Origin: SAR202 cluster bacterium
GTDB taxonomy: Bacteria; Chloroflexota; Dehalococcoidia; Lucifugimonadales; UBA3495
Length of the DNA stretch: 64,000 bases
Reading direction: 5' to 3'
NCBI GenBank assembly: GCA_013204585.1
Contig: JABMNL010000042.1
Location: 1-64,000, forward strand
Position 1 is the stretch's first letter. The number at the start of each line of letters is the position of its first letter. Below the pieces are notes generated by a model. It was not told the DNA's origin and did not search any database. It saw nothing but the letters and a program-made list of their open reading frames with translations. The translations under genes were made by a program, and so were the position numbers. Positions 2,396 through 64,000 of this stretch are shown here, in pieces.

Positions 2396-2401
2396 AAGTT
2401 G

Positions 2402-3037: not shown

Positions 3038-3173
3038 TCTGCCGTTCCATCCAATTAGTAATCCGGGTTGTTCGTCGAGGTTATTATAGCCGGTCAGACT
3101 CTGGCGAAGACGGCAACTTTACGGACGGCGCGGTGAGAGATTAGGGAAGGAAGAACGAGCCAAACGCAATTGG

Positions 3174-3437
3174 CTAGAGGGCGGCATCCACAACTTTGCG
3201 CAGCAATATCAGAATAATCAGCACCACCATAGGGCTGAAGTCGAAGCCGCCAAAACTGGGCAGGCTTTTCCGGATGGGCCCAAGGACCGGCTCGGTAATT
3301 TGATTCACCAGTAAGTTGATACTAACGAGAACTGGATGGGGCCGGCCAGCGCTGAGTTGCATCACAAACGAGAGGATTACCCTGGCAAAGATAGCGAGAG
3401 TGAAGAGAAATAAGATTCCATTGATGATTCCTACCAA
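3174..3437 (-). CDS. YggT family membrane protein
   Basis: Integral membrane protein of 87 residues with two hydrophobic segments (about residues 3-26 and 67-86) around a polar loop containing the family-like stretch ITEPVLGPIRKSLPSFGG. YggT proteins are widespread and often sit beside proC or division genes; their role in bacteria is poorly defined, with links to osmotic stress and membrane organisation. The gene begins 12 bases after proC ends, so the two form an operon. Length matches single-repeat YggT proteins. Confidence 0.85.
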   Translation of the reverse strand: MVGIINGILFLFTLAIFARVILSFVMQLSAGRPHPVLVSINLLVNQITEPVLGPIRKSLPSFGGFDFSPMVVLIILILLRKVVDAAL

Positions 3438-3449
3438 TTCCGAACTCCT

Positions 3450-45827: not shown

Positions 45828-46469
45828 ATGCGTTCGCAACGTGAACAACAAGATCCATCTGAGTCCCACGCCTACCGGGAATTGCAACTGCTTTCCAGAC
45901 TGGACGAGAGCCCAGACGCCACTCAACGTCAACTTTCTGTACGGCTAGGAATCGCGCTGGGGCTGACCAATGTTCTATTGCGAAGCATGGTACAAAAGGG
46001 GTACATCAAGGTCATCCAAGCTACCTGGAAACGTCGGCTATACACGCTGACGCCGACGGGCTTTTCGCGAAGAATCAGCTTGATGGCCGACTACGTTCAC
46101 AAGGTTCTAGACCATTACCAAAGCGTTCGCCAAACCTTAAGAGAACAACTCCAACCGCTGGCGTTAAACGCAGAATCTCGGGTGGCTATTTTCGGCACCG
46201 GCGAGTTTGCAGAGCTGGTCTATCTGGGTCTTAAAGAATTGTCCATCGAAGAAATCGATGTTTTCGAGCTTCAGCCAGCAACGGACCGCCGTTTCTTGGG
46301 CATGCCGGTAAGAGAGCTAGCATCGCTTCAGAGTGAGCACTACGATCGGGTAATCGTCGCTCAACTAGTACCGCAGTTGGCAGAGATGTCGAAGATTAAA
46401 GACCGGGGTGTGTCATCGGAGCAACTAGTTAAATTTTTCTCGAATGGAAAAGCCAAAGGGGGGTTGTGA
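45828..46469 (+). CDS. Winged-helix regulator fused to a Rossmann-like domain
   Basis: Protein of 213 residues. Residues about 15-85 form a MarR-like winged helix (ATQRQLSVRLGIALGLTNVL as recognition region, with a following LTPTGFSRRISLMADYV), as in EPS-associated regulators. About residues 117-195 resemble the nucleotide-binding start of sugar-acyltransferase PglD or CoA-binding proteins (RVAIFGTGEFAELVYLGL). This suggests a DNA-binding protein that senses a nucleotide or sugar nucleotide. The next gene, a NusG-like factor, overlaps its stop (TGATG). Function in controlling the downstream glycan genes is inferred from position. Confidence 0.75.
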   Translation: MRSQREQQDPSESHAYRELQLLSRLDESPDATQRQLSVRLGIALGLTNVLLRSMVQKGYIKVIQATWKRRLYTLTPTGFSRRISLMADYVHKVLDHYQSVRQTLREQLQPLALNAESRVAIFGTGEFAELVYLGLKELSIEEIDVFELQPATDRRFLGMPVRELASLQSEHYDRVIVAQLVPQLAEMSKIKDRGVSSEQLVKFFSNGKAKGGL

Positions 46470-47059
46470 TGGGATCGAGTTGGTACGTGGCTCGCACCGA
46501 GCCCAGAGCGGAGTTCATAGCGACCAAAGAACTTGAGCGCGACGGTTACGACGTCTTCCTCCCTCTTATTGCCGAAACAGCCCCGCGACCTGGCCGCACC
46601 GAATCGCCCCTATTCCCCGGATACCTCTTCGTGCGCTGCAATCCCGAGGCAGAACAATGGCCGACATTTCGGTCGGCACACCGAGTTACCGGCTGGGTGC
46701 GCTTCGGAAATGAAGTTCCATCGATACCGGATAGCAATATGGTCGAATTAAAAGAAAGTTTGGATCGAATCAACCAGCAGGGTGGGATTCTGAGAAGGTT
46801 TGCTACTGGTGAAGTTGTACAGGTTGATGCCGGACACTTCCAAGGCCTGGGAGAGGTACTAGCAGTAGGGAAATCTCCGCAAGCTCGTGCAAACGTGATA
46901 TTGCAATTCATGGGGCGGCTGGTACGGGTTCAGGTTCCTTGGGAAAGCCTCCGGCCCGCTGAAGACCGACCCAAGGAAATACCACGACTCCCTCGTCGAA
47001 CCCGTGGCAAAGGCCGGTGGGTTGGTTCCTTTCGACCCATTCCGGGCGTCACCGCATAG
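46469..47059 (+). CDS. NusG/RfaH-like transcription antitermination factor
   Basis: Specialised NusG paralogue of 196 residues. The NGN domain starts SSWYVARTEPRAEFIATKEL and contains LFPGYLFVRC, the hallmark of NusG/RfaH/UpxY proteins. The KOW domain (about residues 110-155) has EVVQVDAGHFQGLGEVLAV. A basic tail follows. Such paralogues usually act on one long polysaccharide operon, often the one next to their gene, and this one lies just before a 666-base leader and a long glycan gene run. It overlaps the upstream regulator gene by one base (TGATG). Confidence 0.88.
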   Translation: MGSSWYVARTEPRAEFIATKELERDGYDVFLPLIAETAPRPGRTESPLFPGYLFVRCNPEAEQWPTFRSAHRVTGWVRFGNEVPSIPDSNMVELKESLDRINQQGGILRRFATGEVVQVDAGHFQGLGEVLAVGKSPQARANVILQFMGRLVRVQVPWESLRPAEDRPKEIPRLPRRTRGKGRWVGSFRPIPGVTA

Positions 47060-47725: not shown

Positions 47726-48757
47726 ATGCGTTATTTAGTCACCGGCTGTGCTGGATTCATTGGATCAACAGTTGCGGGAATGCTCCTGAACCAAGAACAT
47801 GAAGTCGTTGGCATCGATAACCTTAACGACGCTTATGATGTTCGATTAAAAGAATGGCGTTTGGGACAACTGCAAGGAAGGCAAAACTTTCAATTTAAAC
47901 GTCTCGATATAGCCGACCGCGCAGCCCTGCAAGATTCAATCTCCAAGATGCAAGCATCCGACCCAAAGAACCCACTAGAAGCAATAGTGAATTTCGCGGC
48001 ACGCGCCGGGGTTCGGCAGAGCGTCGAGGATCCGTGGACTTACTACCAGACCAACGTAATTGGCACACTGAACTTGCTCGAGGCCTGCAAAGATTTCGGA
48101 ATAGCAAAATTTACACAAGCATCTACCTCAAGCGTCTATGGCTCACGCGTCCGACCTAACGAACTTAGCGAACCCGCGAGACCTCATAAACTGAACGAAC
48201 CATTCCTTGAGGAAGATTCGACCGACCGTCCGCTTTCTCCTTACGCAGCGTCCAAAAAGGCAGCTGAGGTCTTGTGCCACAGCTACCACCACCTCTATGG
48301 GTTGGATCTCACGGTGTTCCGGTTTTTCACCGTATATGGCCCGGCCGGAAGACCCGACATGAGCGTATTCCGGTTCATCAAGTGGATTGACTCCGGCAAG
48401 CCAGTATCCGTTTACGGGGATGGACTGCAAGAGCGGGACTTTACCTACGTCGATGACATCGCACGTGGCGTGGTTGCGGCATCTAAGTTGAGTGGATTCA
48501 ATGTCATCAACCTTGGTGGTGCCCGGCCGGTACAGTTGATTGAGATGATTCGGATGGTGGAGGGTCTGTTGGGAAAGAAAGCCAATCTTAGCTATTCTCC
48601 CGCCGACCCTACCGACGTTACCGCCACCTGGGCAGACATCTCGAAAGCCCATCGGCTATTAAGTTGGTCGCCGCAAACACCGTTGGAAGTCGGACTGGCC
48701 AGCACCGTGGAGTGGTATCAACAGAACCAAGAGTGGGCTCAACACACGGCGACTTAA
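47726..48757 (+). CDS. NAD-dependent nucleotide-sugar epimerase (UDP-glucuronate 4-epimerase-like)
   Basis: Extended SDR of 343 residues. The NAD motif is VTGCAGFIGSTVAG, the catalytic Ser/Thr is in TQASTSSVYG, and YxxxK is in SPYAASKKAAEVL. The region VVGIDNLNDAYDVRLKEWRL and FRFFTVYGPAGRPDMSVFRF match UDP-glucuronate 4-epimerases best. It is the first gene after the long leader and so probably the first of the main glycan operon. No clear ribosome site precedes the ATG. Confidence 0.88.
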   Translation: MRYLVTGCAGFIGSTVAGMLLNQEHEVVGIDNLNDAYDVRLKEWRLGQLQGRQNFQFKRLDIADRAALQDSISKMQASDPKNPLEAIVNFAARAGVRQSVEDPWTYYQTNVIGTLNLLEACKDFGIAKFTQASTSSVYGSRVRPNELSEPARPHKLNEPFLEEDSTDRPLSPYAASKKAAEVLCHSYHHLYGLDLTVFRFFTVYGPAGRPDMSVFRFIKWIDSGKPVSVYGDGLQERDFTYVDDIARGVVAASKLSGFNVINLGGARPVQLIEMIRMVEGLLGKKANLSYSPADPTDVTATWADISKAHRLLSWSPQTPLEVGLASTVEWYQQNQEWAQHTAT

Positions 48758-48863
48758 GCGTCGTCAGAGTGCTGCTTCTAAACGATGGCCCTGGCCACGA
48801 TTTTAGCAATGTCTACCGGATAGTACCCGGATAAATTTAGCCTCATCCGAGAGTAACCATTCT

Positions 48864-49454
48864 ATGAACACGCCGCATACACAGCGATATTTTGAAGAAG
48901 TAAGTGCCGTAGCTAGCTCTATCGATACCGACGCAATCGAAGAACTAGCATCCGAACTGGTGGCGTTGCGCAATAGGGGCGGGCGATTGTTTTTCTTGGG
49001 CGTCGGCGGGAGCGCCGCAAACTGCAGCCATGCGGTCAATGATTTTCGCAAGCTTTGCGACATTGAGGCCTACACTCCAGTAGATAACGTCGCCGAATTA
49101 ACCGCCCGAACCAACGATGAGGGATGGGACACGGTTTTCGCTGCGTGGCTGCGCACTAGCAGAGCCGACGAAAACGACGCGGCTTTCGTGTTTTCCGTCG
49201 GCGGTGGCAACGTGGAGAAGAACGTCAGCGTTAATATCGTGAATGCCCTCAAAGAGGCTAAGTCCCGCGGGATGAAAATTATGGGGGTCGTGGGACGAGA
49301 CGGTGGCTACACCAAAGAGGTCGGTGATGTGGTGGTGGTGGTTCCGACCATCGACGAATCCAGAGTCACTCCTCACACCGAAGGCTTTCAAGCGGTAGTC
49401 TGGCATTGCCTAGTTTCTCATCCAGACCTGCAGCAGATGGCCACAAAATGGTAA
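48864..49454 (+). CDS. gmhA: SIS-domain sugar-phosphate isomerase (GmhA-like)
   Basis: Protein of 196 residues with the SIS fold of sedoheptulose-7-phosphate isomerase, which makes heptose 7-phosphate. The phosphate-site stretch LGVGGSAANCSHAVNDFRK, and VFSVGGGNVEKNVSVNIVNAL and TPHTEGFQAVVWHCL fit that family. The flanking genes (GmhB-like phosphatase, transaldolase and HldE-like protein) support the heptose role. Classical GmhA zinc-ligand residues cannot be assigned with certainty. Confidence 0.78.
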   Translation: MNTPHTQRYFEEVSAVASSIDTDAIEELASELVALRNRGGRLFFLGVGGSAANCSHAVNDFRKLCDIEAYTPVDNVAELTARTNDEGWDTVFAAWLRTSRADENDAAFVFSVGGGNVEKNVSVNIVNALKEAKSRGMKIMGVVGRDGGYTKEVGDVVVVVPTIDESRVTPHTEGFQAVVWHCLVSHPDLQQMATKW

Positions 49455-49492
49455 AAGTCGACTACTGAATCCTATCCGCGAATGCAAATCCA

Positions 49493-50038
49493 TTGAAGCG
49501 AGCAGTCTTTCTAGATCGTGATGGCACCATTAACCGTGCGATTGTGCGCGACGGCAAGCCTTATCCCCCAGCCACATTGGAGGAATTCGAGCTTCTACCT
49601 GGGACAGCAAAAACAATCGCGGCGCTGCACGAGGCCGGGTTTTTGATTATTGTCGTGACCAATCAGCCAGATGTCGCCACCGGAGTTCAGCGTAAGGAAG
49701 TAGTGGAGTCAATGCACGAAACCCTGCTCACCTCAGGTATATGCGATGACATTATGGTGTGTTATCACACTGATGCGGATCAATGTGAATGTCGCAAGCC
49801 CAAACCAGGAATGTTAATTGAAGCAGCCAGTCAGTGGCAGATTGATCTCACCCAAAGTTTTATGGTGGGCGATCGATGGCGGGATGTGGCGGCAGGAAAA
49901 GCCGCGGGCTGTTTCACATATTTGATTGACAGTGAATATCGGGAACGACACGACGAGCCCGATGTGAAAGTCAGCTCATTGGAAGAAGCAGGCATACTCA
50001 TTCTTCAGGAAATATATCCAGGAGGAGAACCCGACTAA
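49493..50038 (+). CDS. gmhB: D,D-heptose 1,7-bisphosphate phosphatase-like HAD protein (GmhB)
   Basis: HAD-superfamily IIIA phosphatase of 181 residues. Nucleophile motif FLDRDGTINRAI is at the N-terminus, the Thr motif is IIVVTNQPDVATG, and KPKPGMLIEA plus SFMVGDRWRDVAAGKAAGC supply the Lys and acidic residues. A zinc loop with CYHTDADQCECRKPKPG matches GmhB. The start is TTG, 38 bases after the isomerase gene. It overlaps the transaldolase start by one base (TAATG). Confidence 0.86.
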   Translation: MKRAVFLDRDGTINRAIVRDGKPYPPATLEEFELLPGTAKTIAALHEAGFLIIVVTNQPDVATGVQRKEVVESMHETLLTSGICDDIMVCYHTDADQCECRKPKPGMLIEAASQWQIDLTQSFMVGDRWRDVAAGKAAGCFTYLIDSEYRERHDEPDVKVSSLEEAGILILQEIYPGGEPD

Positions 50039-50772
50039 TGACATCAATTGCAGATCTCCAGGTTAAGATTTTTGCTGACGGCGCCGATCTTGATGGCATG
50101 AAGGAAATGTATGCCAACCCACTCATTAAGGGATTCACCACCAACCCTACTCTGATGCGCAAGGCCGGAGTCCAAAATTACGAAGCGTTCGCTCGCCGAG
50201 TGGTGGAAGAAATTCCAGACCGGCCAATATCGTTCGAGGTATTCGCCGACGAGTTCGACGAAATGGAACGCCAAGCGGTGGATATCGCATCATGGGGAGA
50301 AAACGTCTACGTCAAGATCCCCGTGATGAACACTAAGAAGCAGTTCACCGGCCCTCTGATAGAGCGGCTTAGCAACGCTGGAGTCTCACTCAACGTTACC
50401 GCCGTGATGTCGCCAGAGCAGGTGAAAAGAATCACCGATTGCCTAGCAGCAGACACTCCGGCAATCATATCGGTGTTTGCCGGACGCATTGCCGATACCG
50501 GGTTGGACCCGTTGCCGTTGATGGCGGAAGCAATGAAAATCATTAGCGCCAAGCCGAAAGCGGAACTTATTTGGGCCAGCCCCCGCGAGCTGCTAAATAT
50601 TTTCCAAGCCGACTCAATTGGATGCCACATCATCACTGCGACCAACGATATTCTGAACAAGCTCCCCACGGTCGGGAAGGACTTGGATCTCTACTCCCTC
50701 GAAACCGTGCAAATGTTTTACCAGGACGCCGCCGCGGCGAAATACACGATTCAAAAAAACGCGGTCGCTTAG
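50038..50772 (+). CDS. Transaldolase family protein (TalC/FSA-like)
   Basis: Class I aldolase of 244 residues that may make or use sedoheptulose 7-phosphate. The Schiff-base Lys is in NVYVKIPVM. GFTTNPTLMRKAGV and VSLNVTAVMSPEQ are typical of the small transaldolase/fructose-6-phosphate aldolase group. TAATG overlap with the GmhB-like gene indicates translational coupling. Its place inside the heptose genes suggests a dedicated supply of C7 sugar phosphate, an inference from context. Confidence 0.86.
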   Translation: MTSIADLQVKIFADGADLDGMKEMYANPLIKGFTTNPTLMRKAGVQNYEAFARRVVEEIPDRPISFEVFADEFDEMERQAVDIASWGENVYVKIPVMNTKKQFTGPLIERLSNAGVSLNVTAVMSPEQVKRITDCLAADTPAIISVFAGRIADTGLDPLPLMAEAMKIISAKPKAELIWASPRELLNIFQADSIGCHIITATNDILNKLPTVGKDLDLYSLETVQMFYQDAAAAKYTIQKNAVA

Positions 50773-50849
50773 CCAAGACGTCAAATTTGAACAAGTCTTT
50801 GAACAAGTCCACGAAGCAAAATCTAATTCAACAATACTAAATAGCGAAG

Positions 50850-51863
50850 ATGAAACAACAAATGTACAAAAACATACTGATTACTGGTGGCGCAGGCTAT
50901 GTTGGCAGCGTCGTAACGCCGCAATTATTGGAAGCCGGTTACAACGTGACCGTATACGACATCATGTATTTTGGGTCCGAAGGACTGCCGAAGCATCCCA
51001 ACCTATCGGTGATTACCGGAGACAGTCGCGACACCGGCAAACTTGCAGACGCGTTCAAAGACATCGACGTCGTATTGCATCTTGCCTGTATCTCAAACGA
51101 CCCCAGTTTTGACCTCGACGAGAACCTAAGCAAGACCATTAACTTCGATTGTTTCGAGCCGACGGTGATTGCCGCCAAGGAAGCTGGCGTCAAGCGCTTC
51201 GTCTACTGCTCATCAAGTTCGGTCTACGGCGTGAGCGACCAGCCCAACGTGACCGAGGACCATCCACTGGTGCCCCTCACGCTCTACAACAAGTTCAAAG
51301 GCATGTGCGAACCGCTGCTATTCAAACATGAATCGCCCGACTTCACTTGTGTCACCATCCGGCCCGCCACGATATGCGGCTTCAGTCCACGCATGCGGTT
51401 GGATTTGACGGTAAATATCCTGACCAACCACGCCATCAACAACAATAAAATCACCGTTTTTGGCGGAGAGCAATTACGCCCGAATCTGCACATCAACGAT
51501 ATGGCTGACCTGTATCAGTTGCTGTTAGAGGTGCCGAGCGAAAAAATCGCCGGTCAGATATTTAACGTTGGGTACGAGAACCACAGCATCATGAATATCG
51601 CGCAGATGGTGCGTAAAGTGGTAATGGAAGAGTTCCCTGACAAGGGTGAGATTGAAATCGTTACGACGCCATCTGATGACCTGCGGTCGTACCACATCAA
51701 TTCCGACAAAATCTATAACGCCCTTGGGTTCCGCACAAAGCGAACCATCGAAGACGCAGTGCGCGATTTATGCGCGGCGTTCAAGGCTGGCAAGCTGCCG
51801 GACAGCATGACTCAGGAAAACTATTTCAATGTTAAGACAATGATGTCCCAGGGCATTAAATAA
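50850..51863 (+). CDS. NAD-dependent epimerase/dehydratase (extended SDR) 2
   Basis: Extended SDR of 337 residues. NAD motif ILITGGAGYVGSVV, catalytic Ser in YCSSSSVYGVSD, and YxxxK in TLYNKFKGMCE. The D-rich C-terminal half with PNLHINDMADLYQLLLE is shared with GDP- or UDP-sugar epimerases and with hydroxyacyl-type relatives. The sugar is unknown. Two Met codons (1 and 5) are possible starts. It is followed by a second epimerase gene after one base. Confidence 0.86.
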   Translation: MKQQMYKNILITGGAGYVGSVVTPQLLEAGYNVTVYDIMYFGSEGLPKHPNLSVITGDSRDTGKLADAFKDIDVVLHLACISNDPSFDLDENLSKTINFDCFEPTVIAAKEAGVKRFVYCSSSSVYGVSDQPNVTEDHPLVPLTLYNKFKGMCEPLLFKHESPDFTCVTIRPATICGFSPRMRLDLTVNILTNHAINNNKITVFGGEQLRPNLHINDMADLYQLLLEVPSEKIAGQIFNVGYENHSIMNIAQMVRKVVMEEFPDKGEIEIVTTPSDDLRSYHINSDKIYNALGFRTKRTIEDAVRDLCAAFKAGKLPDSMTQENYFNVKTMMSQGIK

Positions 51864-51864
51864 C

Positions 51865-52863
51865 ATGGCCCGTCCCGTTGCGGTAGTTACCGGTGGCGCT
51901 GGATTCATCGGTAGCCACATGGTCGATTTGCTAATCGAAGAGGGTTTCGAAGTCCGGGTAATCGACAATCTTGTTGGTGGCCGCGAAGAAAACATTAAAC
52001 ATCACAGTAGTGACTCGCTGGTATTCGAGCGGCGGGAGATTCGCGACGTCCAGAAAGACGATGTCCTCTTCAAAGGCGCCGATTACGTATTTCACTTTGG
52101 GGGGATTGGCGATATTGTGCCGTCCATTGAACGGCCAACTGAGTATATGTCCACCAATGTCCAAGGCACGGTGCAGATGCTCGAATGCGCGCGGTACGCC
52201 GGGGTAAAGAAATTCGTCTACGCCGCCTCCTCTTCTTGTTACGGCCTTGCCGACGTTCCGACCCGTGAGGACCACCGAATCGACCCCCAGTATCCCTACG
52301 CCCTGTCCAAGTATCAGGGAGAGCAGGCCTGTCTCCACTGGAACCAAGTCTATCGATTGCCGGTGAATTCGATTCGAATTTTTAACGCATACGGAACACG
52401 ATCACGTACTTCTGGCGCTTATGGCGCGGTATTCGGAGTTTTTCTCAAGCAAAAATTGGCCGGAAAACCCTTCACTGTTGTTGGGGATGGCACGCAGTCC
52501 CGCGATTTCCTGTATGTCACCGACATCGCTCGCGCGTTTCACCTGGCGGCCAAAACCGATCGGGTGGGGGAGATTTACAACCTCGGCGCGGGCAATCCTC
52601 AATCCGTTAATCGGCTAATTGAGTTGCTCGGTGGACCTGTCGTGCACCTGCCCAAACGACCCGGTGAACCCGATTGTACCTGGGCGGACATCACCAAGAT
52701 TAAAACCCAGCTGGGCTGGGAGCCGCAGGTAAGTTTTGAAGATGGTGTTCAGAGAGTTCTAGACAACATCGAGTACTGGCAGAACGCACCTCTGTGGGAT
52801 CCAGACACCATCGCCACTGCCACAAAAACTTGGCGCGAAATGCTGTCTTCGAAAGGCGAATAA
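51865..52863 (+). CDS. NAD-dependent epimerase/dehydratase (UDP-glucose 4-epimerase-like) 3
   Basis: Extended SDR of 332 residues. NAD motif VTGGAGFIGSHMVDLL, catalytic Ser in YAASSSCYGLAD, YxxxK in PYALSKYQGEQA, and the stretch RSRTSGAYGAVFGVFLKQ plus GDGTQSRDFLYVTDIARA are typical of UDP-hexose 4-epimerases. The C-terminus has TWADITKIKTQLGWEP, usual for the family. Adjacent to the preceding epimerase with a one-base spacer and 2 bases from the HldE-like gene. Confidence 0.88.
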   Translation: MARPVAVVTGGAGFIGSHMVDLLIEEGFEVRVIDNLVGGREENIKHHSSDSLVFERREIRDVQKDDVLFKGADYVFHFGGIGDIVPSIERPTEYMSTNVQGTVQMLECARYAGVKKFVYAASSSCYGLADVPTREDHRIDPQYPYALSKYQGEQACLHWNQVYRLPVNSIRIFNAYGTRSRTSGAYGAVFGVFLKQKLAGKPFTVVGDGTQSRDFLYVTDIARAFHLAAKTDRVGEIYNLGAGNPQSVNRLIELLGGPVVHLPKRPGEPDCTWADITKIKTQLGWEPQVSFEDGVQRVLDNIEYWQNAPLWDPDTIATATKTWREMLSSKGE

Positions 52864-52865
52864 AA

Positions 52866-54425
52866 ATGGAAGAACCTAGCAAAGGCCAAATTGGCCACAA
52901 GATTAAGACAGTAGAAGAACTTTCTGCGATTATTGGTCTGCGGCCCCGTGAAAAAACAGTGATTATGTGCCACGGCACATTCGATGTTGTTCATCCCGGC
53001 CATATTCGGCATCTAATGTACGCCAAGACAAAAGGCGACATGCTCGTCGCAAGCCTAACTGCCGATGAGCATATCGAAAAGGCAGATTTCCGACCTTACG
53101 TCCCCGAGGAATTGCGTGCGATTAACTTGGCTGCTCTGGAGATGGTTGATTACGTCATCATCGACCGCGACTCGACACCGCTCCGGAACCTAGGAATCAT
53201 CCAGCCTGACTTTTTTGCCAAAGGCTACGAATATTCCAGCGCCGGGGTAAATCCCAAGACCCAAGAAGAAATTGAGGTACTTGAAAGCTATGGCGGTGAA
53301 ATTATTTTCACTCCCGGCGACATCGTCTACTCTTCTTCGGCACTGATTAACCTTGCACCGCCTAAGATTGCCAATGAAAAACTGCTAACACTGATGGAAG
53401 CCGAGGGAATCGAGTTCAGCGATCTTTACGCAGCGCTCGATATGTTCAAATACATCAAAGTCCACGTTGTGGGCGACACCATCGTAGACAGTTATACCCA
53501 TTGCAGCATGATTGGCGGCGTGACCAAGACACCGACCATGAGCGTTTTATTTCAAAATAAAATCGACTATACCGGCGGGGCGGCGATTGTTTCAAAGCAC
53601 TTAAAAGCGGCGGGCGCCGATGCCACGTTTTCTACGGTGCTTGGAAACGACACCTTAAAGGACTTTGTCCTCGACGACCTGAACAAGGCCGGGGTCAAGG
53701 TTCATGCCATAGTTGATAACACACGACCGACTACCAACAAAAACGCCATCATTTCAGAAGGCCACCGGCTGCTAAAGGTCGACACGCTAGACAACCGGTC
53801 AATCTCCGAAAGAGACGTGGCACGCCTGCAAGAACAAATCGCCACAATTCAGACCGACGCCATAGTATTCAGCGACTTCCGCCATGGCATCTTCAATCGC
53901 CACACTATTCCAGAACTGACTTCCGCGATTCCATCTGACGTTTTCCGTGCGGCGGACAGCCAAGTGGCTAGCCGCTGGGGCAACATCCTTGAATTTGAGG
54001 GGTTCGACCTAATCACCCCAAACGAACGCGAAGCCCGGTTCGCTCTGGGCGATCAGGACTCGGTGGTCCGCCCGCTTGCGCTCGAACTACGACACCGCGC
54101 GAAGTGCAAAACACTGATACTCAAGTTGGGAGAACGCGGCATAATCACCTACCGCTCGGATTCGCAAGTGCCGCGAGCCTTCTTCGCAATTGACAGTTTC
54201 GTGGAGCGACTAGTGGACGCCGTTGGGGCTGGCGACGCATTGCTAGCGTATTCCACCCTTGCCTTGATTGCCACGAAGAATGAGGTTATCGCTTCAATAC
54301 TAGGTTCCATGGCGGCGAGTGTGGAATGCGAATACGACGGCAACGGGCCGGTAAAGCCAGAAGCTGTTAAGGAAAAAATTCATCGCGTGGAAACGCACAC
54401 CCAATACCAGTACGACGCGAATTGA
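52866..54425 (+). CDS. hldE: HldE-like protein: nucleotidyltransferase plus PfkB kinase, reversed order
   Basis: Bifunctional enzyme of 519 residues for ADP-heptose synthesis or a similar activated sugar. The cytidylyltransferase-like domain comes first (about residues 30-165; CHGTFDVVHPGHIRHLM contains the HxGH motif). The PfkB carbohydrate-kinase domain follows (about 195-505; TGGAAIVSKHLKAAGA, then DAVGAGDALLAYSTL with the catalytic Asp). In E. coli HldE the kinase comes first. I chose the ATG just after the epimerase stop. Joint activity is inferred from both domains being intact. Confidence 0.82.
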   Translation: MEEPSKGQIGHKIKTVEELSAIIGLRPREKTVIMCHGTFDVVHPGHIRHLMYAKTKGDMLVASLTADEHIEKADFRPYVPEELRAINLAALEMVDYVIIDRDSTPLRNLGIIQPDFFAKGYEYSSAGVNPKTQEEIEVLESYGGEIIFTPGDIVYSSSALINLAPPKIANEKLLTLMEAEGIEFSDLYAALDMFKYIKVHVVGDTIVDSYTHCSMIGGVTKTPTMSVLFQNKIDYTGGAAIVSKHLKAAGADATFSTVLGNDTLKDFVLDDLNKAGVKVHAIVDNTRPTTNKNAIISEGHRLLKVDTLDNRSISERDVARLQEQIATIQTDAIVFSDFRHGIFNRHTIPELTSAIPSDVFRAADSQVASRWGNILEFEGFDLITPNEREARFALGDQDSVVRPLALELRHRAKCKTLILKLGERGIITYRSDSQVPRAFFAIDSFVERLVDAVGAGDALLAYSTLALIATKNEVIASILGSMAASVECEYDGNGPVKPEAVKEKIHRVETHTQYQYDAN

Positions 54426-54432
54426 TTTAACA

Positions 54433-55356
54433 GTGCGTGTCATCGTCGTCGGCCTCGGAGTACAAGGAAATAAAAGACTGGCTATCGCCGGCAAGGAAGT
54501 CGTAGCGACGGTCGACCCAATTAGTGACAAGGCAGATTACAAATCAATAAGTGATGTGCCGCTGGGCGAATATGACGCCGCGTTAATTTGCACGCCTGAC
54601 GATGCGAAGATCGAACTGCTCACCTATTTACTAAACAACGGCAAGCACCTGTTGGTGGAAAAGCCCTTACTCGCTCCCGATAATAGTGCGCTTGAGGTGC
54701 TGGCGAAAACAGCCCGTTTGAATGGGGTTGTCTGTTATACCGCTTATAACCACCGTTTCGAACCTCACTTTGTCCGAATGAAGCAAACAATAGAATCGGG
54801 GCAGCTTGGCAAAATCTACTGCGTACGCATGTTCTACGGAAACGGCACTGCGCGTCTTGTTCGAAACTCACCTTGGCGCGACCAAGGAGATGGCGTTCTA
54901 ACTGACTTGGGCTCACATCTGCTTGATACCCTGCTGTTCTGGTTCGGAAAGCCGGAGGCACCGTTCGATATCTATTCGAGCAACCGATTTGAGAACCAAT
55001 CGTTCGATCATTTCTCCTTCGGGGCCAATGGCTCACCTGTGCTCCAATTAGAAGTAACACTGCTGAACTGGCGCAACCATTTCTATGCTGACGTGCTGGC
55101 CGAAAAAGGCAGCGCCCATATTCAATCGCTATGTAAATGGGGACCTACCACCTTCACGCTGCGGAATCGTGTGCTGCCGAGTGGGAAACCCGACGAGGAA
55201 GAAGTGACTTTGGCGCAATCCGACCCCACATGGGAGCTCGAATACCAGCACTTCAAGGGACTAACGGCAACCGGTGAAAGCAATATCGAAAATGATATGT
55301 GGATAAATTCAGTGCTTAACGGACTTGGCCAGCGCGCCTTAGGTGCAACACAATGA
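54433..55356 (+). CDS. Gfo/Idh/MocA family oxidoreductase
   Basis: NAD(P)-dependent sugar oxidoreductase of 307 residues. The Rossmann motif is VIVVGLGVQGNKRLA, and the hallmark EKP is in HLLVEKPLLAPDN. YTAYNHRFEPHFVRMKQ and TDLGSHLLDTLLFWFG belong to the C-terminal catalytic half, with the His of the active site in LGSHLLD. Substrate could be a nucleotide sugar or inositol-like compound. The start is GTG, 7 bases after the HldE-like gene; the end overlaps the next gene by 4 bases. Confidence 0.87.
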   Translation: MRVIVVGLGVQGNKRLAIAGKEVVATVDPISDKADYKSISDVPLGEYDAALICTPDDAKIELLTYLLNNGKHLLVEKPLLAPDNSALEVLAKTARLNGVVCYTAYNHRFEPHFVRMKQTIESGQLGKIYCVRMFYGNGTARLVRNSPWRDQGDGVLTDLGSHLLDTLLFWFGKPEAPFDIYSSNRFENQSFDHFSFGANGSPVLQLEVTLLNWRNHFYADVLAEKGSAHIQSLCKWGPTTFTLRNRVLPSGKPDEEEVTLAQSDPTWELEYQHFKGLTATGESNIENDMWINSVLNGLGQRALGATQ

Positions 55357-56627
55357 CCTTGCCAGTTATCGGCTTTGCAGGCATGAGCCATCTCGGGCTA
55401 ATATCAGCGGTCGCGGCGGCAGAGAAAGGTTTCGACACAATTTGTTACGACCCAGACTCGCAGCAAATAGCCAAGCTTGCCCGCAACGAGCTAACGATAG
55501 TTGAGCCGGACTTATGCGAGTTACTCGAAAAAAACCAGTCTCGCATCAAGTTTTCAGCAGACCTACAAGAGTTAACGTCCTGCGAGTTGGTATACATCGC
55601 AGTCGACGTGCCAACTGATGATCAGGCACAGAGTAACCTTGAACCGATTAATTCATTGGTCAGTCAGGTCGATTCGAATCTAGGTTCGGATGCGGTAATG
55701 GTTATCCTGAGTCAAGTCCCGCCCGGATTTACCCGAGAACATGTGCGGAATGCTCGTCAGATATATTGCCAGGTAGAAACACTAATCTTTGGCCAAGCTA
55801 TCGCCAGGGCCCTCAATCCAGAACGAACGATCGTTGGTTGCGCAGAGCCGAATAAGCCGTTACCCCAGGCATTCGCACAGTTTCTAGACAGCTTCGGTTG
55901 CCAGATATTGCCAATGCGCTATGAAAGCGCGGAGCTAGCCAAGATTTCAATCAACATGTGCCTGGTTGCGTCGGTCAGCGTCGCCAACACGCTCGCTGAG
56001 CTATGCGAGAACATCGGCGCAGACTGGTCGGAGATTGTGCCAGCGCTCAAGCTCGACCGGCGAATCGGCCAGTACGCCTATCTGGCACCAGGGCTCGGCA
56101 TTTCTGGCGGCAACCTAGAGCGGGATTTGGCGACGGTGTGCAACTTAGCCGACCAGAATGGCACCGACGCCGGCGTGGTACGCGCCTGGGTTGCCAACAG
56201 CCACCACCGCCGCGATTGGGTACTGCGCACTTTACATCGAGAGACCCTGTCCAAGGTGGACGACCCGGTAATTACTGTGTTGGGACTTGCCTACAAACAA
56301 GATACTAATTCAACCAAAAATTCGCCTTCGATAGCGCTGCTAGAGAACTTAACGCCGTTCCAAGTACGCGTGTTTGATCCGGTGGTTCCGGCCTCGGCTG
56401 CTCCAAATCCCCGTTGCCACGCCGCTGAATCCGAGTACGAAGCGTGTGACGGAGCGGATGTGCTGGTGGTGATGACACCCTGGACGCAATTCAAACATCT
56501 GGATCTTCAGGAGGTTGCGAAACGTATGCGCGACCGCGTTATCCTCGACCCCTATGGTGTGTTCCAGGCCAAAGATTGCCGTGACGCGGGACTGTCTTAC
56601 CACACGCTTGGCGTACCGGCTGAGTAG
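55353..56627 (+). CDS. UDP-sugar dehydrogenase homologue lacking the catalytic Cys
   Basis: Related to UDP-glucose/GDP-mannose dehydrogenases, with 424 residues. The NAD-binding, central (ELAKISINMCL with the Lys) and UDP-binding domains are present. In the active-site loop (residues 249-258, GISGGNLERD) an ungapped match to the family pattern G-x-G-G-x-C-x-P-K-D places Asn254 where the thioester-forming Cys should be. The usual N-terminal GxGxxG is also altered (GFAGMSHLG). It may therefore perform a different reaction, such as a single oxidation. It overlaps the Gfo/Idh gene by 4 bases. Confidence 0.85.
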   Translation: MTLPVIGFAGMSHLGLISAVAAAEKGFDTICYDPDSQQIAKLARNELTIVEPDLCELLEKNQSRIKFSADLQELTSCELVYIAVDVPTDDQAQSNLEPINSLVSQVDSNLGSDAVMVILSQVPPGFTREHVRNARQIYCQVETLIFGQAIARALNPERTIVGCAEPNKPLPQAFAQFLDSFGCQILPMRYESAELAKISINMCLVASVSVANTLAELCENIGADWSEIVPALKLDRRIGQYAYLAPGLGISGGNLERDLATVCNLADQNGTDAGVVRAWVANSHHRRDWVLRTLHRETLSKVDDPVITVLGLAYKQDTNSTKNSPSIALLENLTPFQVRVFDPVVPASAAPNPRCHAAESEYEACDGADVLVVMTPWTQFKHLDLQEVAKRMRDRVILDPYGVFQAKDCRDAGLSYHTLGVPAE

Positions 56628-58402: not shown

Positions 58403-61006
58403 TTGACCACTATGATTAACAGATTCAGCCTTACTGATCGGGACCGGCAGGAGATTGAGAAACTAAGGGTTAACCCCTTAGACATTCAAAACGACAATTA
58501 CGACTACTCAAAAGTCGTCGTGAAAAAACCCTGGGGTTATGAGTACCTGATTTTCGCCAATGAGACGATAGCAGTTTGGATTCTTTATTTAAAATCAGGG
58601 GCTGAAACCTCGATGCATTGCCACCCCGGCAAAAAGACATCGCTGGTGGTATTGGAAGGGCAGGTAAATTGCTCCACCATCACCGAACAACTGATCCGCG
58701 GTGCTGGCGAGGGGTTATGGATCGACAAAGGAGCATTTCACCAGACCTCCGCAATTTCAGAAGCAGGCGCTTTTGTGATGGAGATTGAGACTCCGGTCAA
58801 TAAACGAGATTTAGTCCGACTCAAAGATAAATACGGGCGAGAAGGACAGGGGTACGAGTCGGAAGCTCAACATTCTTTTGACACCCAAAACTACAATTAC
58901 ATCTCGTTTCAGGGACTTGAGATACAGCACAATCTTAAGAAGCGGTACGGGCAGTGCTCCATGACATTCAAGAAACTGTCTGACGCAAATGTCTTGGATG
59001 AAATTCTTCAACTTAACCCAGAAGATGTTGTCTGCCTTCTAAAAGGGACGCTCCTCGACACCGCCAACCAATCTGTCGTAGCAGCGGGCGACACTATGAC
59101 GGTTGATGCACTAAAACAGATGGGCCAGTTGCAAATCGGCGAGAATTCGGAAATGTTGACCATCAAGAAGATCGACCGTATTCTCAAAATCTCTGATTGC
59201 GTCGCATCATTCTTGAACGAAAACGGTATCAACCCGGTCTTTATCGTGCCCGGCGAGGCCAATGTCCATCTGCTCGATTCCATCGGTCGGCACGAGGGTT
59301 TGAGCTTTGTTTGCACCCAGAATGAAAAAAGCGCCTCTCTGGCCGTCGAATCATTCTGCAAGCTGCGGTCGGGATTAGGAGCACTGGTGGTCTCTTCTGG
59401 GGCTGCGGCCGCGAACGCGATTCCTGGAGTGGCAAATGCCTGGGCAGATTCTGTTCCGATGCTGGTCATCTCTGGACAGGCGCGTACCGACCAAGACACG
59501 GATGGCCGGGTTAGGCAGCTGGGTAATAAGCAATTGAACGTCGTCGATATAGTTCAGTCGATGACGAAATATGCCGTCAAGGTCACCGACCCAACCATGG
59601 TTCAATATCATCTGGAAAAGGCCATCTACCTTGCCACACGAGGAAGACCCGGACCAGTTTGGATCGACCTCCCCATCGATGTTCAAGGGATGGTCGTTGA
59701 TGAAGAAGAACTAATACGGTTTAATCCCGCTGAATTGAGTCTGACCGCCACAGCTTCGACAAGCGAGGCTCAACGGCAAATCGCGCAGGTGTTTGAACTT
59801 CTTAGACAGTCGTCTCGCCCCGTAATTTTAGCTGGCAGCGGTATCCGCCTCGCGAAGGCGAGCAAGGAATTTTTGGAACTGGTCGACCGACTTGGTATTC
59901 CTGTGCTTACCAGTCGCCGCGGCGCAGACCTTATGGCAGACAATCACCCGTACTTCTTTGGCCGGCCCGGCACTTATGGACAGCGAAGCGCCAACTTCAT
60001 AATTCAAAATTGCGATTTGTTAGTCAGCATTGGGTCACGGCTCTCCATCCCGCTTATTGGTCGTGACACCAAGGCCTTTGCGCGGGCAGCCAGCATAATC
60101 ATCGTCGACGTAGACCCCAACGAATTGAAAAAACCAACCCTGAAGCCCAAATTGCCAATCAACATGGATGCCGGTAGCTTCATTAACGGGTGTCTAGCCA
60201 CCTTACCGGAGTCGCTTCCTTCCTATTCGTCCTGGATTGATCGCTGTTGGGAATGGCGCCAACAATTCCCTCCAGATTCTTATACCGGGCCGTCGCTGCC
60301 ACCTGACCCACGCAAAGACAATGAGTTAATTTATCCTCTCTCAGTTCTCCGCACGCTCTCAGACGAGCTAGCTGAAGATGATGTGGTCATCGCCGATGGT
60401 GGGGCTACTTTGATTTACACCCTATTGGGCTTTCGATTTAAGTCAGGCCAAAGACTCATCAGCTCTACAGGCTTGGAACTCCCAGGATTTGCCTTGGCAG
60501 GGGCGATTGGGGCCTGCGTAGCAAATGACCGGCAACAAGTGGTCTGTCTCTGTGAGGACCGCGGCTTTCAGATTAGCATTCAAGACCTTCAGACCATTGT
60601 CGACTACCGGCTGCCGATTAAAGCGCTGATTTTTAAAAGCAAAGGGCATTCCATAATCAGAAATATCCAACGGGACTACTTTGGCGGTCGATTTGTCGGG
60701 ACCGATCATGAGATTCGTTTGGGGTCAGCTCCGTTAATCGAAATTGCCAAGACTTTCGGCTTTCCGACCTTCCAAGCGTCTCTGGACAAACAACTACAAT
60801 CCACGATTGCTGAATGGCTCCAAATAGAGGGTCCTGCGATTTGTGAGATTCAGGTTGAAGACGACCAAGACAAAATTCCACGTCCCGGTTTCACGATTCG
60901 AGACGACCAAAAGTGGATTGCGAAACCCCTGGAGGATATGTCGCCATTCTTGGAACGTAAAACATTGGCAGAAACCATGTTGATAAAACTAGTCCATGAG
61001 GACTAA
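58403..61006 (+). CDS. Fusion of double-cupin (PMI-like) and ThDP-dependent enzyme
   Basis: An 867-residue fusion. Residues about 40-130 are a cupin of mannose-6-phosphate-isomerase type (KKPWGYEYLIF, His72 and His74, with His113), and about 165-255 look like a second, degenerate cupin. From about 258 to the end is an acetolactate-synthase-like ThDP enzyme: catalytic Glu308 (CTQNEKSASLAVES), VVSSGAAAANAIPGVANAWADS, then the ThDP/metal motif as E718-D-R-G-F with Lys745-Ser746 where Asn-Asn is usual. The metal-site Asp stays but the Asn is lost. The start is TTG here, or ATG 9 bases later. A related ThDP gene follows after 18 bases. Confidence 0.85.
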   Translation: MTTMINRFSLTDRDRQEIEKLRVNPLDIQNDNYDYSKVVVKKPWGYEYLIFANETIAVWILYLKSGAETSMHCHPGKKTSLVVLEGQVNCSTITEQLIRGAGEGLWIDKGAFHQTSAISEAGAFVMEIETPVNKRDLVRLKDKYGREGQGYESEAQHSFDTQNYNYISFQGLEIQHNLKKRYGQCSMTFKKLSDANVLDEILQLNPEDVVCLLKGTLLDTANQSVVAAGDTMTVDALKQMGQLQIGENSEMLTIKKIDRILKISDCVASFLNENGINPVFIVPGEANVHLLDSIGRHEGLSFVCTQNEKSASLAVESFCKLRSGLGALVVSSGAAAANAIPGVANAWADSVPMLVISGQARTDQDTDGRVRQLGNKQLNVVDIVQSMTKYAVKVTDPTMVQYHLEKAIYLATRGRPGPVWIDLPIDVQGMVVDEEELIRFNPAELSLTATASTSEAQRQIAQVFELLRQSSRPVILAGSGIRLAKASKEFLELVDRLGIPVLTSRRGADLMADNHPYFFGRPGTYGQRSANFIIQNCDLLVSIGSRLSIPLIGRDTKAFARAASIIIVDVDPNELKKPTLKPKLPINMDAGSFINGCLATLPESLPSYSSWIDRCWEWRQQFPPDSYTGPSLPPDPRKDNELIYPLSVLRTLSDELAEDDVVIADGGATLIYTLLGFRFKSGQRLISSTGLELPGFALAGAIGACVANDRQQVVCLCEDRGFQISIQDLQTIVDYRLPIKALIFKSKGHSIIRNIQRDYFGGRFVGTDHEIRLGSAPLIEIAKTFGFPTFQASLDKQLQSTIAEWLQIEGPAICEIQVEDDQDKIPRPGFTIRDDQKWIAKPLEDMSPFLERKTLAETMLIKLVHED

Positions 61007-61024: not shown

Positions 61025-62827
61025 ATGCGCGTTGCCGATTACGTTATCGAGTTTTTTGAGAACCAAGGCGTCGATCACATATTCACCGTCTCAGGCGGAG
61101 GATCGATTTTTCTCTGTGACGCCTTGGCGGTGGCAAAAAAAATGAAGTATGTTGCCTGCCATCACGAGCAGGCGGCATCCATGGCAACCGAAGCCTATGC
61201 TCGGGTCCGGCAAGACCTAGGAGTCACTCTAGTCACCGCTGGTCCGGGAGGCACCAATACTGTCACCGGAGTCGCTGGTTCCTGGCTAGACCATGTCCCG
61301 CATGTGACCATTTCAGGGCAGGTCTTTTTGGCCCAAACTATCAATAACCATCCCGGTTTGCGGACGTTGGGAGTCCAGGAAATAAACATCGTCGATGTCG
61401 TCCGGCCCATCACCAAATATGCCGTCATGGTTGAGGACGCTCAGGAGATTAAATACCACTTGGAGAAGGCCGTTTACCTAGCAACTCATGGTCGGCCTGG
61501 CCCTACTTGGATTGATCTTCCAGCCAATATCCAAAATGCCAACATCGATGTGGCTACCCTGAAAAGCTATGACCCCAAAGAGGATGAGGAACACCTAGAC
61601 CCCGACTTGGAAGCAAAAATAGGGCAACTTGTAGAATTATTAAGTTCGGCAACGCGGCCCCTAGTGCATGTGGGACAGGGTGTCCGGATTGCTGGCGCTG
61701 AAAAAGAGTTCTTCAAACTCATAGAAAATCTTCGACTACCTTTTGTGACAGCAAGAAACGCCAACGACATCACGTCTTCGGACCACGAATTTTTTGCCGG
61801 TCGTCCTGGGACTTTTGCCGAACGAGGGGCCAATTTTGCAGTACAGACTGCCGACGTATATCTGGCAATAGGCACCCGTCTTTCCCTCGCCCAAACCGGC
61901 TACGACGCAAACAACTATGCGCGCAACGCCAAAGTCATCATGGTTGATATTGACCAGGCAGAGTTGGATAAAGACACCGTCAAATTACATCTGAAGATTA
62001 AATCCGACGCAAAGCTTTTCTTAGAAGAACTGAACCGACAGCTTTCCCAGACGGAGTTGGATAACCATCAATGGGATAAATGGATTGCCCAATGTCAACA
62101 GTGGCGACAAAAATACCCGGTCGTTCTACCCGAATACCGAGACCAGGTCGGTAGCGTCAACTCTTATCATTTCATCGATACCCTCTCTGACGTTTTAGAG
62201 TCCGATGATGTAGTCGTTACAGACATGGGCTTTGCCTTTCAGAACACCCACCAAGCCCTTCGTATTAAAAAGGGACAGCGGGTATTCACCAATTGCGGCC
62301 TAGCTGCCATGGGCTGGGGCCTACCGGCGGCGGTGGGAGCCTGTTTCGGGAACGGCAAAAAGCGAACGGTCTGCATTGCTGGCGAAGGAGGGTTCATGAT
62401 GACCGTCCATGAGATGGCAACAATCATGCACCACCGCCTACCAGTCAAAGTGTTTATCTTCAATAATGGTGGTTATCTGACCATCAAACAGACCCAGGAG
62501 CTTGGTTTTGATGGGCGCATCATGGGGGTCAATGAGGACTCGGGGCTCTCTTTTCCAGATTTCATGAAACTCGCCGAAGCCCACAACTTCAAAGGTGTCC
62601 GCCTCACATCCCATCAGGGATTAAAGGAAGCGATTCAGGAAATCATGGACCATGACGGGCCTGTGCTCTGTGAAATCATGATGGATCCGGACCAGATGCA
62701 GGCACCCAAATCCATCAACCGGCGAAACGCTGACGGTACCATGAAACAAACACCTATCGAGGACAGTTTCCCTTTCTTAGATTCGGAAGAAGTCGCAGCA
62801 AATCTGGACATCGTCAACAAGATTTAA
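61025..62827 (+). CDS. ThDP-dependent acetolactate-synthase-like enzyme
   Basis: Protein of 600 residues with the three-domain ThDP decarboxylase/carboligase fold. The catalytic Glu is Glu48 (CHHEQAASMATEAYA). LVTAGPGGTNTVTGVAGSWLDHVP belongs to the pyrimidine domain. The pyrophosphate/metal motif reads G-E454-G-G-F instead of GDG, and the Asn pair (Asn480-Asn481) is kept. Related acetolactate-synthase-like enzymes in glycan loci, such as YerE of Yersinia, attach a two-carbon unit to a keto sugar; a similar role is an inference here. The gene is a clear paralogue of the fused one upstream, including the C-terminal IEDxxPFL-like end. Confidence 0.87.
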   Translation: MRVADYVIEFFENQGVDHIFTVSGGGSIFLCDALAVAKKMKYVACHHEQAASMATEAYARVRQDLGVTLVTAGPGGTNTVTGVAGSWLDHVPHVTISGQVFLAQTINNHPGLRTLGVQEINIVDVVRPITKYAVMVEDAQEIKYHLEKAVYLATHGRPGPTWIDLPANIQNANIDVATLKSYDPKEDEEHLDPDLEAKIGQLVELLSSATRPLVHVGQGVRIAGAEKEFFKLIENLRLPFVTARNANDITSSDHEFFAGRPGTFAERGANFAVQTADVYLAIGTRLSLAQTGYDANNYARNAKVIMVDIDQAELDKDTVKLHLKIKSDAKLFLEELNRQLSQTELDNHQWDKWIAQCQQWRQKYPVVLPEYRDQVGSVNSYHFIDTLSDVLESDDVVVTDMGFAFQNTHQALRIKKGQRVFTNCGLAAMGWGLPAAVGACFGNGKKRTVCIAGEGGFMMTVHEMATIMHHRLPVKVFIFNNGGYLTIKQTQELGFDGRIMGVNEDSGLSFPDFMKLAEAHNFKGVRLTSHQGLKEAIQEIMDHDGPVLCEIMMDPDQMQAPKSINRRNADGTMKQTPIEDSFPFLDSEEVAANLDIVNKI

Positions 62828-62854
62828 TCCATTAATTGATTGGAGAATAAGCAC

Positions 62855-63373
62855 ATGACAGGAAAGGCGCTAATCATCACCGGGCGGCAAGTCCAAGACC
62901 ACGAATATATCTATCCATATTATCGGCTTCAGGAAGAGGGCTATGAAGTAGATGTTGCGGTACGCGGTAAAGAGACCGTGCTGGCAATCATTGGGGTTCG
63001 AATTGAACCTACCAAAGATATCCCCGAGCTAAAGGTAGAAGACTACGAAGTCCTAGTCCTCCCTGGTGGTGCCAAGGCGATGGAATACATGAGACAAGAT
63101 CAGGAGATTCTTGATTTTATCGCCAAATTTCATGCCTCCGGTAAGGTGATTGGTTCTATCTGTCACGCGGGTCAGTTACTTATCTCAGCCAAGCTTGTCA
63201 AAGGGAGAAAAGTCTCCGGTTACTACAGCATCAAAGATGATATCAACAACGCCGGTGGCACCTATGTTGATGCGCCCTTTGTGACGGACGATAGAATTGT
63301 TTCTTGTCCTCATTACAAGCATCTTGGACCGTGGATGAAAGAAGTAATCGCGCAGGCCCAGAAGACTGCATGA
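62855..63373 (+). CDS. DJ-1/PfpI family protein
   Basis: Glutamine-amidotransferase-like fold of 172 residues. The nucleophile elbow is in IGSICHAGQLLIS (Cys), with VLVLPGGAKAMEYMR before it and a His in CPHYKHLGP further on. The family includes proteases, glyoxalase III-like deglycases and chaperones. GGAG lies about 10 bases before the chosen ATG; a TTG 5 codons upstream is less likely. It follows the ThDP enzyme after 27 bases and may remove reactive aldehyde by-products of the sugar route, an inference. Confidence 0.87.
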   Translation: MTGKALIITGRQVQDHEYIYPYYRLQEEGYEVDVAVRGKETVLAIIGVRIEPTKDIPELKVEDYEVLVLPGGAKAMEYMRQDQEILDFIAKFHASGKVIGSICHAGQLLISAKLVKGRKVSGYYSIKDDINNAGGTYVDAPFVTDDRIVSCPHYKHLGPWMKEVIAQAQKTA

Positions 63374-63423: not shown

Positions 63424-64000
63424 ATGCGTGAATATGACGCTTTAACAGGTTATCCCGAACCAAACCAACCGCGTGTCGTTCATCCAAATATCAGGACGAT
63501 ACACAATCGAATTGTCGCTTCTTATCGTGGCGAAGAATTCTATGACGGGGACCGCAATAATGGGTATGGCGGTTTCAGGTACGACGGTCGGTGGGCGCCG
63601 GTCGCCAAAAACATGTTGGAACAATACTCCCTCAGTGGACAATCAGCGATTTTGCAGATTGGCAGCGACAAGGGTTTCTTGCTCCACGAGTTCCTCCAGA
63701 TCTGTCCCGACATGAAAGTAAGAGGAACCGAAGTCTCCGACTATGCGATTGAATACACGATGCCTTCAGTCAAGTCTTTCGTAGAGCAGGCGCCGTTCAC
63801 GAAACTGCCGTTCGCAGACGAAGAATTTGATTTCATCATTGCCATTGGGCCGGTTTATTCCTTAAACCTACCCGATGCCATCAAATGCCTAAAAGAAATA
63901 CAACGTGCCGGGAGAGGGAAAAGTTTCATAACCCTTGGTGCCTATGAGACGGAAGAAGATTTTCGTCTGTTTCGATACTGGACCCTTCTGGGCAGCACGA
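63424..64000 (+). CDS. Methyltransferase-like protein, cut by the window edge
   Basis: An open frame from ATG 63424 runs off the right edge with at least 192 codons. It begins MREYDALTGYPEPNQPRVV, contains a SAM-binding-like strand ILQIGSDKGFLLHEFL and an acidic second motif (GTEVSDYAIEYT), then LPFADEEFDFIIAIGPVYSL, the pattern of class I methyltransferases of the Methyltransf_11 kind. The first motif (GSDKG) is a variant of GxGxG. Its place in the locus suggests a glycan or lipid methylation, but the acceptor is unknown. Confidence 0.78.
   Translation, partial: MREYDALTGYPEPNQPRVVHPNIRTIHNRIVASYRGEEFYDGDRNNGYGGFRYDGRWAPVAKNMLEQYSLSGQSAILQIGSDKGFLLHEFLQICPDMKVRGTEVSDYAIEYTMPSVKSFVEQAPFTKLPFADEEFDFIIAIGPVYSLNLPDAIKCLKEIQRAGRGKSFITLGAYETEEDFRLFRYWTLLGST

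Follow-up and report, generated by a model that had tools for sequence, protein, structure and literature searches.

A conserved cupin–YerE-like fusion with a rewritten cofactor site beside an intact paralogue in a sugar operon of a SAR202 cluster bacterium

Gene content of the locus

The window (the whole stretch of 64,000 nucleotides that was analyzed) carries toward its end a glycan-type operon with sugar-enzyme genes, in agreement with the glycan locus proposed in the initial annotation. The features of this operon are as follows.

47726..48757, + strand: NDP-sugar 4,6-dehydratase/epimerase-like protein (below equivalog cut-offs)
48864..49454, + strand: SIS-domain protein, phosphoheptose-isomerase-like, divergent (family match, below equivalog cut-off)
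49493..50038, + strand: HAD phosphatase, GmhB-like (family match, below equivalog cut-off)
50038..50772, + strand: transaldolase (TIGR02134, above cut-off)
50850..51863, + strand: NAD-dependent sugar epimerase/dehydratase (Pfam)
51865..52863, + strand: NAD-dependent sugar epimerase/dehydratase (Pfam; a 58% homologue lies upstream of the single fusion in L037)
52794..54425, + strand: HldE-like protein in swapped order, nucleotidyltransferase first and PfkB kinase second (homologues near the cassette in L029, L030, L035 and L036)
54433..55356, + strand: Gfo/Idh/MocA oxidoreductase (Pfam)
55353..56627, + strand: nucleotide-sugar dehydrogenase, UGDH family (family matches)
58412..59173, + strand: cupin domain of the fusion (Pfam, alignment of 10 cupins, AlphaFold2, structural matches)
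59180..61006, + strand: YerE-like ThDP-enzyme part of the fusion, cofactor site rewritten (sequence, alignment, structure match)
61025..62827, + strand: free YerE-like paralogue, here ThDP2, 600 aa with an intact site (sequence, alignment; partner of the fusion in L029-L032)
62840..63373, + strand: DJ-1/PfpI family protein with a CxH elbow, GSICHAG (family matches; 3' of ThDP2 in L029-L032)
63424..63999, + strand: SAM-dependent methyltransferase running past the window end (226 aa in L109:625-1305)

Three sugar epimerase/dehydratases lie in 47726-52863 and a fourth at 56515. Beyond the window (L109) an SDR, a NUDIX protein and two DegT proteins follow. The operon neighbours mostly score below curated cut-offs. 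A NusG paralogue (46466-47059) heads the operon; it may be an antiterminator dedicated to this operon, comparable to RfaH or LoaP.

Layout and family of the fusion protein

Positions 58403-61006 on the plus strand form a single unbroken ORF of 867 codons, counted from the TTG at 58403. Since the relatives all align from the ATG at 58412, which yields 864 aa, we prefer this codon, and it is probably the true start; residue numbers of the fusion are counted from TTG 58403 throughout. The cupin takes up residues ~1-257 and is followed by a whole ThDP-enzyme chain at ~260-861. Pfam TPP_enzyme_N, _M and _C match residues 262-816, and the Cupin_2 match at residues 62-124 scores 21.7 bits, below the curated cut-off of 27.2. 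Structure prediction, a check put forward in the initial annotation, gave with AlphaFold2 a full ThDP-enzyme fold at 258-867 (mean pLDDT of the ThDP part 85.7) and, in a model of the isolated cupin (pLDDT 85.2), a confident barrel at ~37-142.

The best match to the fused ThDP chain is JanthE of Janthinobacterium sp. HH01 (PDB 8rph/8rpi/8rpj; E 2.4e-112, residues 258-860), ahead of acetolactate synthases. JanthE is also the top structural match to the predicted chain (Z 51, 580 residues, 1.8 A), shares its fold, and at 35% identity is the closest solved structure; it is the closest solved relative of ThDP2 as well. The NCBIfam AHAS equivalog TIGR00118 gave 315.7 bits for the fusion and 389.4 for ThDP2, both below its cut-off of 538.35. 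The earlier description of the chain as acetolactate-synthase-like therefore stands at the superfamily level only: all ALS/AHAS models are far under their cut-offs, JanthE is much closer, and the fused ThDP part is YerE-like, not an acetolactate synthase. JanthE is described as a member of the YerE-like class, whose enzymes join 2-oxo acids with ketones and form the C-branched sugars of LPS (PMC12247030). The yersiniose synthase YerE of Yersinia pseudotuberculosis, a member of this C-branching carboligase family that acts on CDP-keto-sugars and is encoded in LPS loci (PMC12247030), has a similar operon setting; its kinship to the window chains is drawn via JanthE, and neither a cupin nor a degenerate paralogue has been reported for it.

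Relatives and distribution of the fusion

Contigs of 84,980 genomes were scanned with an alignment that combined JanthE with the fusion and the neighbouring ThDP2. This search for further cupin-ThDP fusions found five close relatives (L029-L032, 58-66% identity; L033, 60%, which ends at a contig edge), three distant fusions (L035-L037, 35-36% identity) and one split pair, L034, whose cupin and ThDP parts are adjacent genes (880-1647 and 1648-3444). An error of sequencing or assembly joining two genes, the artefact that the initial annotation had named as a possible explanation, is excluded by the recurrence of the same fusion in five close (one truncated) and three distant relatives, and the cupin-ThDP fusion is confirmed as real and conserved. 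The relatives are labelled Myxococcota, Acidobacteriota, Pseudomonadota, Planctomycetota, Lentisphaerota and Elusimicrobiota, labels that carry a binning risk since all of them are metagenome bins. The other 71 loci of the scan hold YerE-like enzymes without this cupin in the flanks examined, save for a weak cupin match in L075.

Closer to the host, the fusion was not found in 60 relatives, and at E 1e-20 only one of 50 members of the host family, the genome itself, had it, which fits horizontal gain, or loss elsewhere. Searches of 400 genomes of the host phylum gave only weak single-cupin matches and not the fusion, and the fusion was likewise not found in the viral contigs and plasmids searched. 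In the tree, the fused chains group in one clade and the free ThDP chains in another, both with full support, and pairwise identities rank alike in the two. AU tests gave p 0.36 for an origin of the fused chain from the adjacent ThDP2 by tandem duplication and 0.30 for one origin of all fusions, and the tree does not separate alternative relationships among the fused, free and single-fusion ThDP chains.

The literature searched gave no relevant match for a cupin plus acetolactate synthase fusion in a polysaccharide context, or for heptose, PfpI, cupin and ThDP genes together. As far as searched, the architecture is thus undescribed, as the initial annotation had supposed, and its component parts come from known families.

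The cofactor site of the fused chain is rewritten

We compared the fused clade with 56 sequences outside it, in which each of the columns reported here as lost is at least 97% conserved; the columns were placed around the ThDP site via the JanthE papers and known family motifs. Counts for the PP half rest on five sequences (L033 is truncated) and those for the PYR half on six. All fused members have lost M434, G460, N486 and Y489 in the PP half and H52, Q54, T76, G80 and Q122 in the PYR half (JanthE numbering). The methionine that imposes the V conformation on the cofactor (M434) is P694 in 5/5, the metal ligand Asn486 is S746 in 5/5, and Tyr489 is His or Asn. The GDG/CDG triplet reads E718-D719-R720 in the window fusion and EDR or EDH in the orthologues, G460 being replaced by Arg or His. 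The motif G/C-D-G-x24-27-N is therefore absent from the fused chain, and EDR/EDH-x24-[KR]-S stands in its place in 5/5 orthologues reaching it. JanthE, which is without a cupin, has Met, CDG and NN where the fused chain has Pro, EDR and K-S.

Other parts of the chain are retained. The middle domain keeps 12/12 near-invariant columns, the activating Glu of the PYR domain (Glu53 of JanthE) is E308 and is kept in 6/6 members, and Asp719 is also retained. The replacement residues are themselves conserved (P694 and S746 in 5/5, K376 and R554 in 6/6) among orthologues whose ThDP chains are 55-71% identical across phyla, which indicates constraint and not decay; simple pseudogene decay was rejected on these grounds. 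The alignment argues for a fixed new state of the fused ThDP site, and the chain probably no longer binds ThDP.

These data bear on the model of the initial annotation, in which the fusion itself would be bifunctional, the cupin isomerizing a sugar and the ThDP part then carrying out cleavage or carboligation on the same chain. The full ThDP fold, the retention of E308 and D719, the conserved FAD-positioning Tyr and Pro of JanthE (Y525, P550) and the tolerance of JanthE to an altered first Gly of the motif (PMC12247030) all speak for it. We nevertheless consider it quite improbable for this gene, in view of the loss of near-invariant cofactor residues throughout the fused clade and of the intact ThDP enzyme encoded by the very next gene. 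The distant single fusions L035-L037 have the same cupin on a ThDP chain that keeps the canonical GDG...NN (as does the split pair L034), so there a one-chain combination of cupin and active ThDP enzyme is plausible from the sequences.

A set of basic residues in the fused pocket (K376, R554, R720, K745, K747 and R827) is fixed or nearly so, and the Mg-binding Asn is gone. It is conceivable, if very doubtful, that the rewritten pocket has taken on a new ligand and a new role, holding an NDP-keto-sugar by its diphosphate (or else a nucleotide) and offering the sugar to the cupin and the paired ThDP2, in a two-protein isomerase-carboligase assembly.

The free paralogue and the recurring cassette

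ThDP2 has the site residues H47-E48-Q49, M429, G453-E454-G455 and N480-N481. With GEG-x24-NN and the activating E48 it has both the ThDP/Mg motif and the Glu, and it retains its own full PYR set (H47, E48, Q49, T71, G75, Q118) and full PP set. The change from Asp to Glu at the Mg2+ ligand (GDG to GEG) is found in the free ThDP2 clade and also in L054 and L102.

In the window, as in L029, L030, L031 and L032 (61-76% identical), this gene comes directly after the fusion, and in L031 the fusion stop and the ThDP2 start overlap in TGATG. At L032:3575-5210 the ThDP2 frame is without the N-terminal stretch bearing the activating Glu and shows a frame change; this is either an assembly fault or a real loss. 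The DJ-1/PfpI gene precedes the single fusion in L035-L037. The cassette is also flanked by the methyltransferase in L029, L030 and L035-L037, and by an SDR in L030, L035-L037 and L109, the stretch downstream of the window. Since distant lineages have the cupin and a YerE-like chain with canonical GDG...NN either as one gene (L035-L037) or as neighbouring genes (L034), the two functions travel together.

In this superfamily, ThDP sites lie between the PYR and PP domains of two chains. The fusion and ThDP2 might accordingly form an obligate heterodimer with a single type of ThDP site, made up of the PP domain of ThDP2 and completed by E308 from the fused PYR domain, neither protein being active alone. 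Such an arrangement would account for the conservation of E308 in 6/6 orthologues while the neighbouring His and Gln vary or change, and it matches the presence of ThDP2 next to the fusion wherever the contig extends, as well as the L032 frame without its own Glu stretch, if that is not an assembly fault. We judge it unlikely: five near-invariant residues are gone from the PYR half of the fused chain, and ThDP2 retains a PYR set on which there would be no constraint if its counterpart were the dead PP domain of the fusion. That both sets are complete in ThDP2 favours ThDP2:ThDP2 sites over a site shared with the fused chain.

That the fused ThDP part is a relic serving cupin folding only, with no partner role, is most unlikely. 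Its cofactor site is degenerate, as a relic's would be, but the 55-71% identity and the specific new residues fixed across phyla, together with the co-occurrence of fused and free proteins in the same order, stand against it.

The cupin domain

The cupin model had a best DALI-scale Z of 14.2, and the C-terminal cupin of CapF, an archaeal PMI, KdgF and lyxose isomerase are tied at Z ~13-14; dioxygenases and storage proteins are also among the top matches. The earlier reading of a PMI-like double cupin holds in part. One barrel is confident, and residues ~178-256 are beta-rich (pLDDT ~80-93), but coverage among the structural matches listed is mainly 29-150; residues ~178-256 may, judging from the model, be a degenerate second cupin.

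Across 10 aligned cupins, H72, H74, P75, K77, T79 and H113 are invariant, giving a cupin 1 motif H72-x-H74-P-x-K77-K-T79 plus H113, followed by a conserved tail DLxRLxDxYGRxGxxYE. The metal Glu of the standard cupin motif, as found in PMI, is Thr79 in 10/10, so that by this motif the cupin is not a phosphomannose isomerase, and Pfam MannoseP_isomer has no match in the window cupin (the L034 cupin scores 24.1, barely above the cut-off of 23.6). In the host phylum, single PMI-like cupins ~34% identical to the window cupin adjoin phosphoglucomutase/phosphomannomutase-like genes (neighbour identity judged by eye). The window cupin shares with these single cupins a KPWG start and a DLxRLxDxYGR-type tail, and it differs from PMI-type cupins in Thr79, in His-x-His for Gln-x-His and in the attached ThDP chain. 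CapF of Staphylococcus aureus is a known nucleotide-sugar enzyme in which a cupin is joined to another catalytic domain (Z 14.2), although its cupin is only 14% identical in sequence and its partner domain is an SDR reductase and not a ThDP enzyme. The ligand of the window cupin is likely a sugar.

Pathway setting

Judged by its parts list only, the operon is similar to the pathway for the lincosamide octose (LmbR, N, K, P, O, L, M, Z, S; PMC4351081; for the LmbR reaction, PMC5854111): it encodes a transaldolase, SIS isomerase, HAD phosphatase, kinase/nucleotidyltransferase, UGDH-type dehydrogenase, epimerases, Gfo/Idh/MocA and DegT proteins (48864-56627 and L109:2326-5955). The kinase/nucleotidyltransferase of the window differs in being HldE-like, and the ThDP/cupin/DJ-1 cassette is not in the Lmb list. 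By analogy, the operon may make an octose or some other sugar of the higher-carbon type. In branched octoses elsewhere, a C-4 acetyl branch has been proposed to undergo ketoreduction (PMC4753412), which would fit the SDR beside the carboligase.

Two further groups of proteins were observed in the flanks. A recurring protein of ~270-320 aa, possibly oxygenase-like, is found at L109:1317-2282 (no Pfam/NCBIfam match), L109:12232-13044 and L030:16133-16993 (alike by eye), and L109:7388-8611 and L109:8679-9908 encode tandem, closely similar proteins of ~408 aa, the first without a Pfam match.

A proposed two-protein assembly

The reading we prefer, to which we give about an even chance, is that the locus builds a higher-carbon keto-sugar, with ThDP2 as the carboligase and with the fusion, a rewritten YerE-like scaffold bearing a cupin, assembling with it. 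The locus would make an unusual NDP-activated (heptose/octose-like) keto-sugar, which would then be given an acyl branch. A ThDP2 homodimer, the simplest catalyst since both site halves are intact in ThDP2, would bind ThDP, decarboxylate a 2-oxo acid and join the acyl anion to the keto group of the sugar. The fused cupin would act on or bind the same keto-sugar (as an isomerase or epimerase type), its YerE-like scaffold docking with ThDP2, and the downstream SDR and methyltransferase would respectively reduce and methylate the branch. We infer the assembly from gene order and the substrate from the neighbours; the cupin reaction and the order of steps are likewise proposals. Several points stand against this reading: a wholly dead site would not need the E308 that is kept in 6/6, Asp719 is kept as well, the tree does not order the three kinds of ThDP chain, the neighbours that suggest the substrate mostly score below curated cut-offs, and a shared cupin fold does not identify a reaction.

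Few enzymes can join carbon to ketones, and the YerE-like enzymes belong to this small group. In the cassette described here, present in several phyla, a cupin and a DJ-1 protein accompany a YerE-like enzyme and a conserved paralogue whose site is rewritten, which suggests a two-protein system that attaches carbon branches to unusual sugars. The cassette offers a defined gene set for studying the origin of ThDP pseudoenzyme subunits and for finding a new branched higher-carbon sugar.
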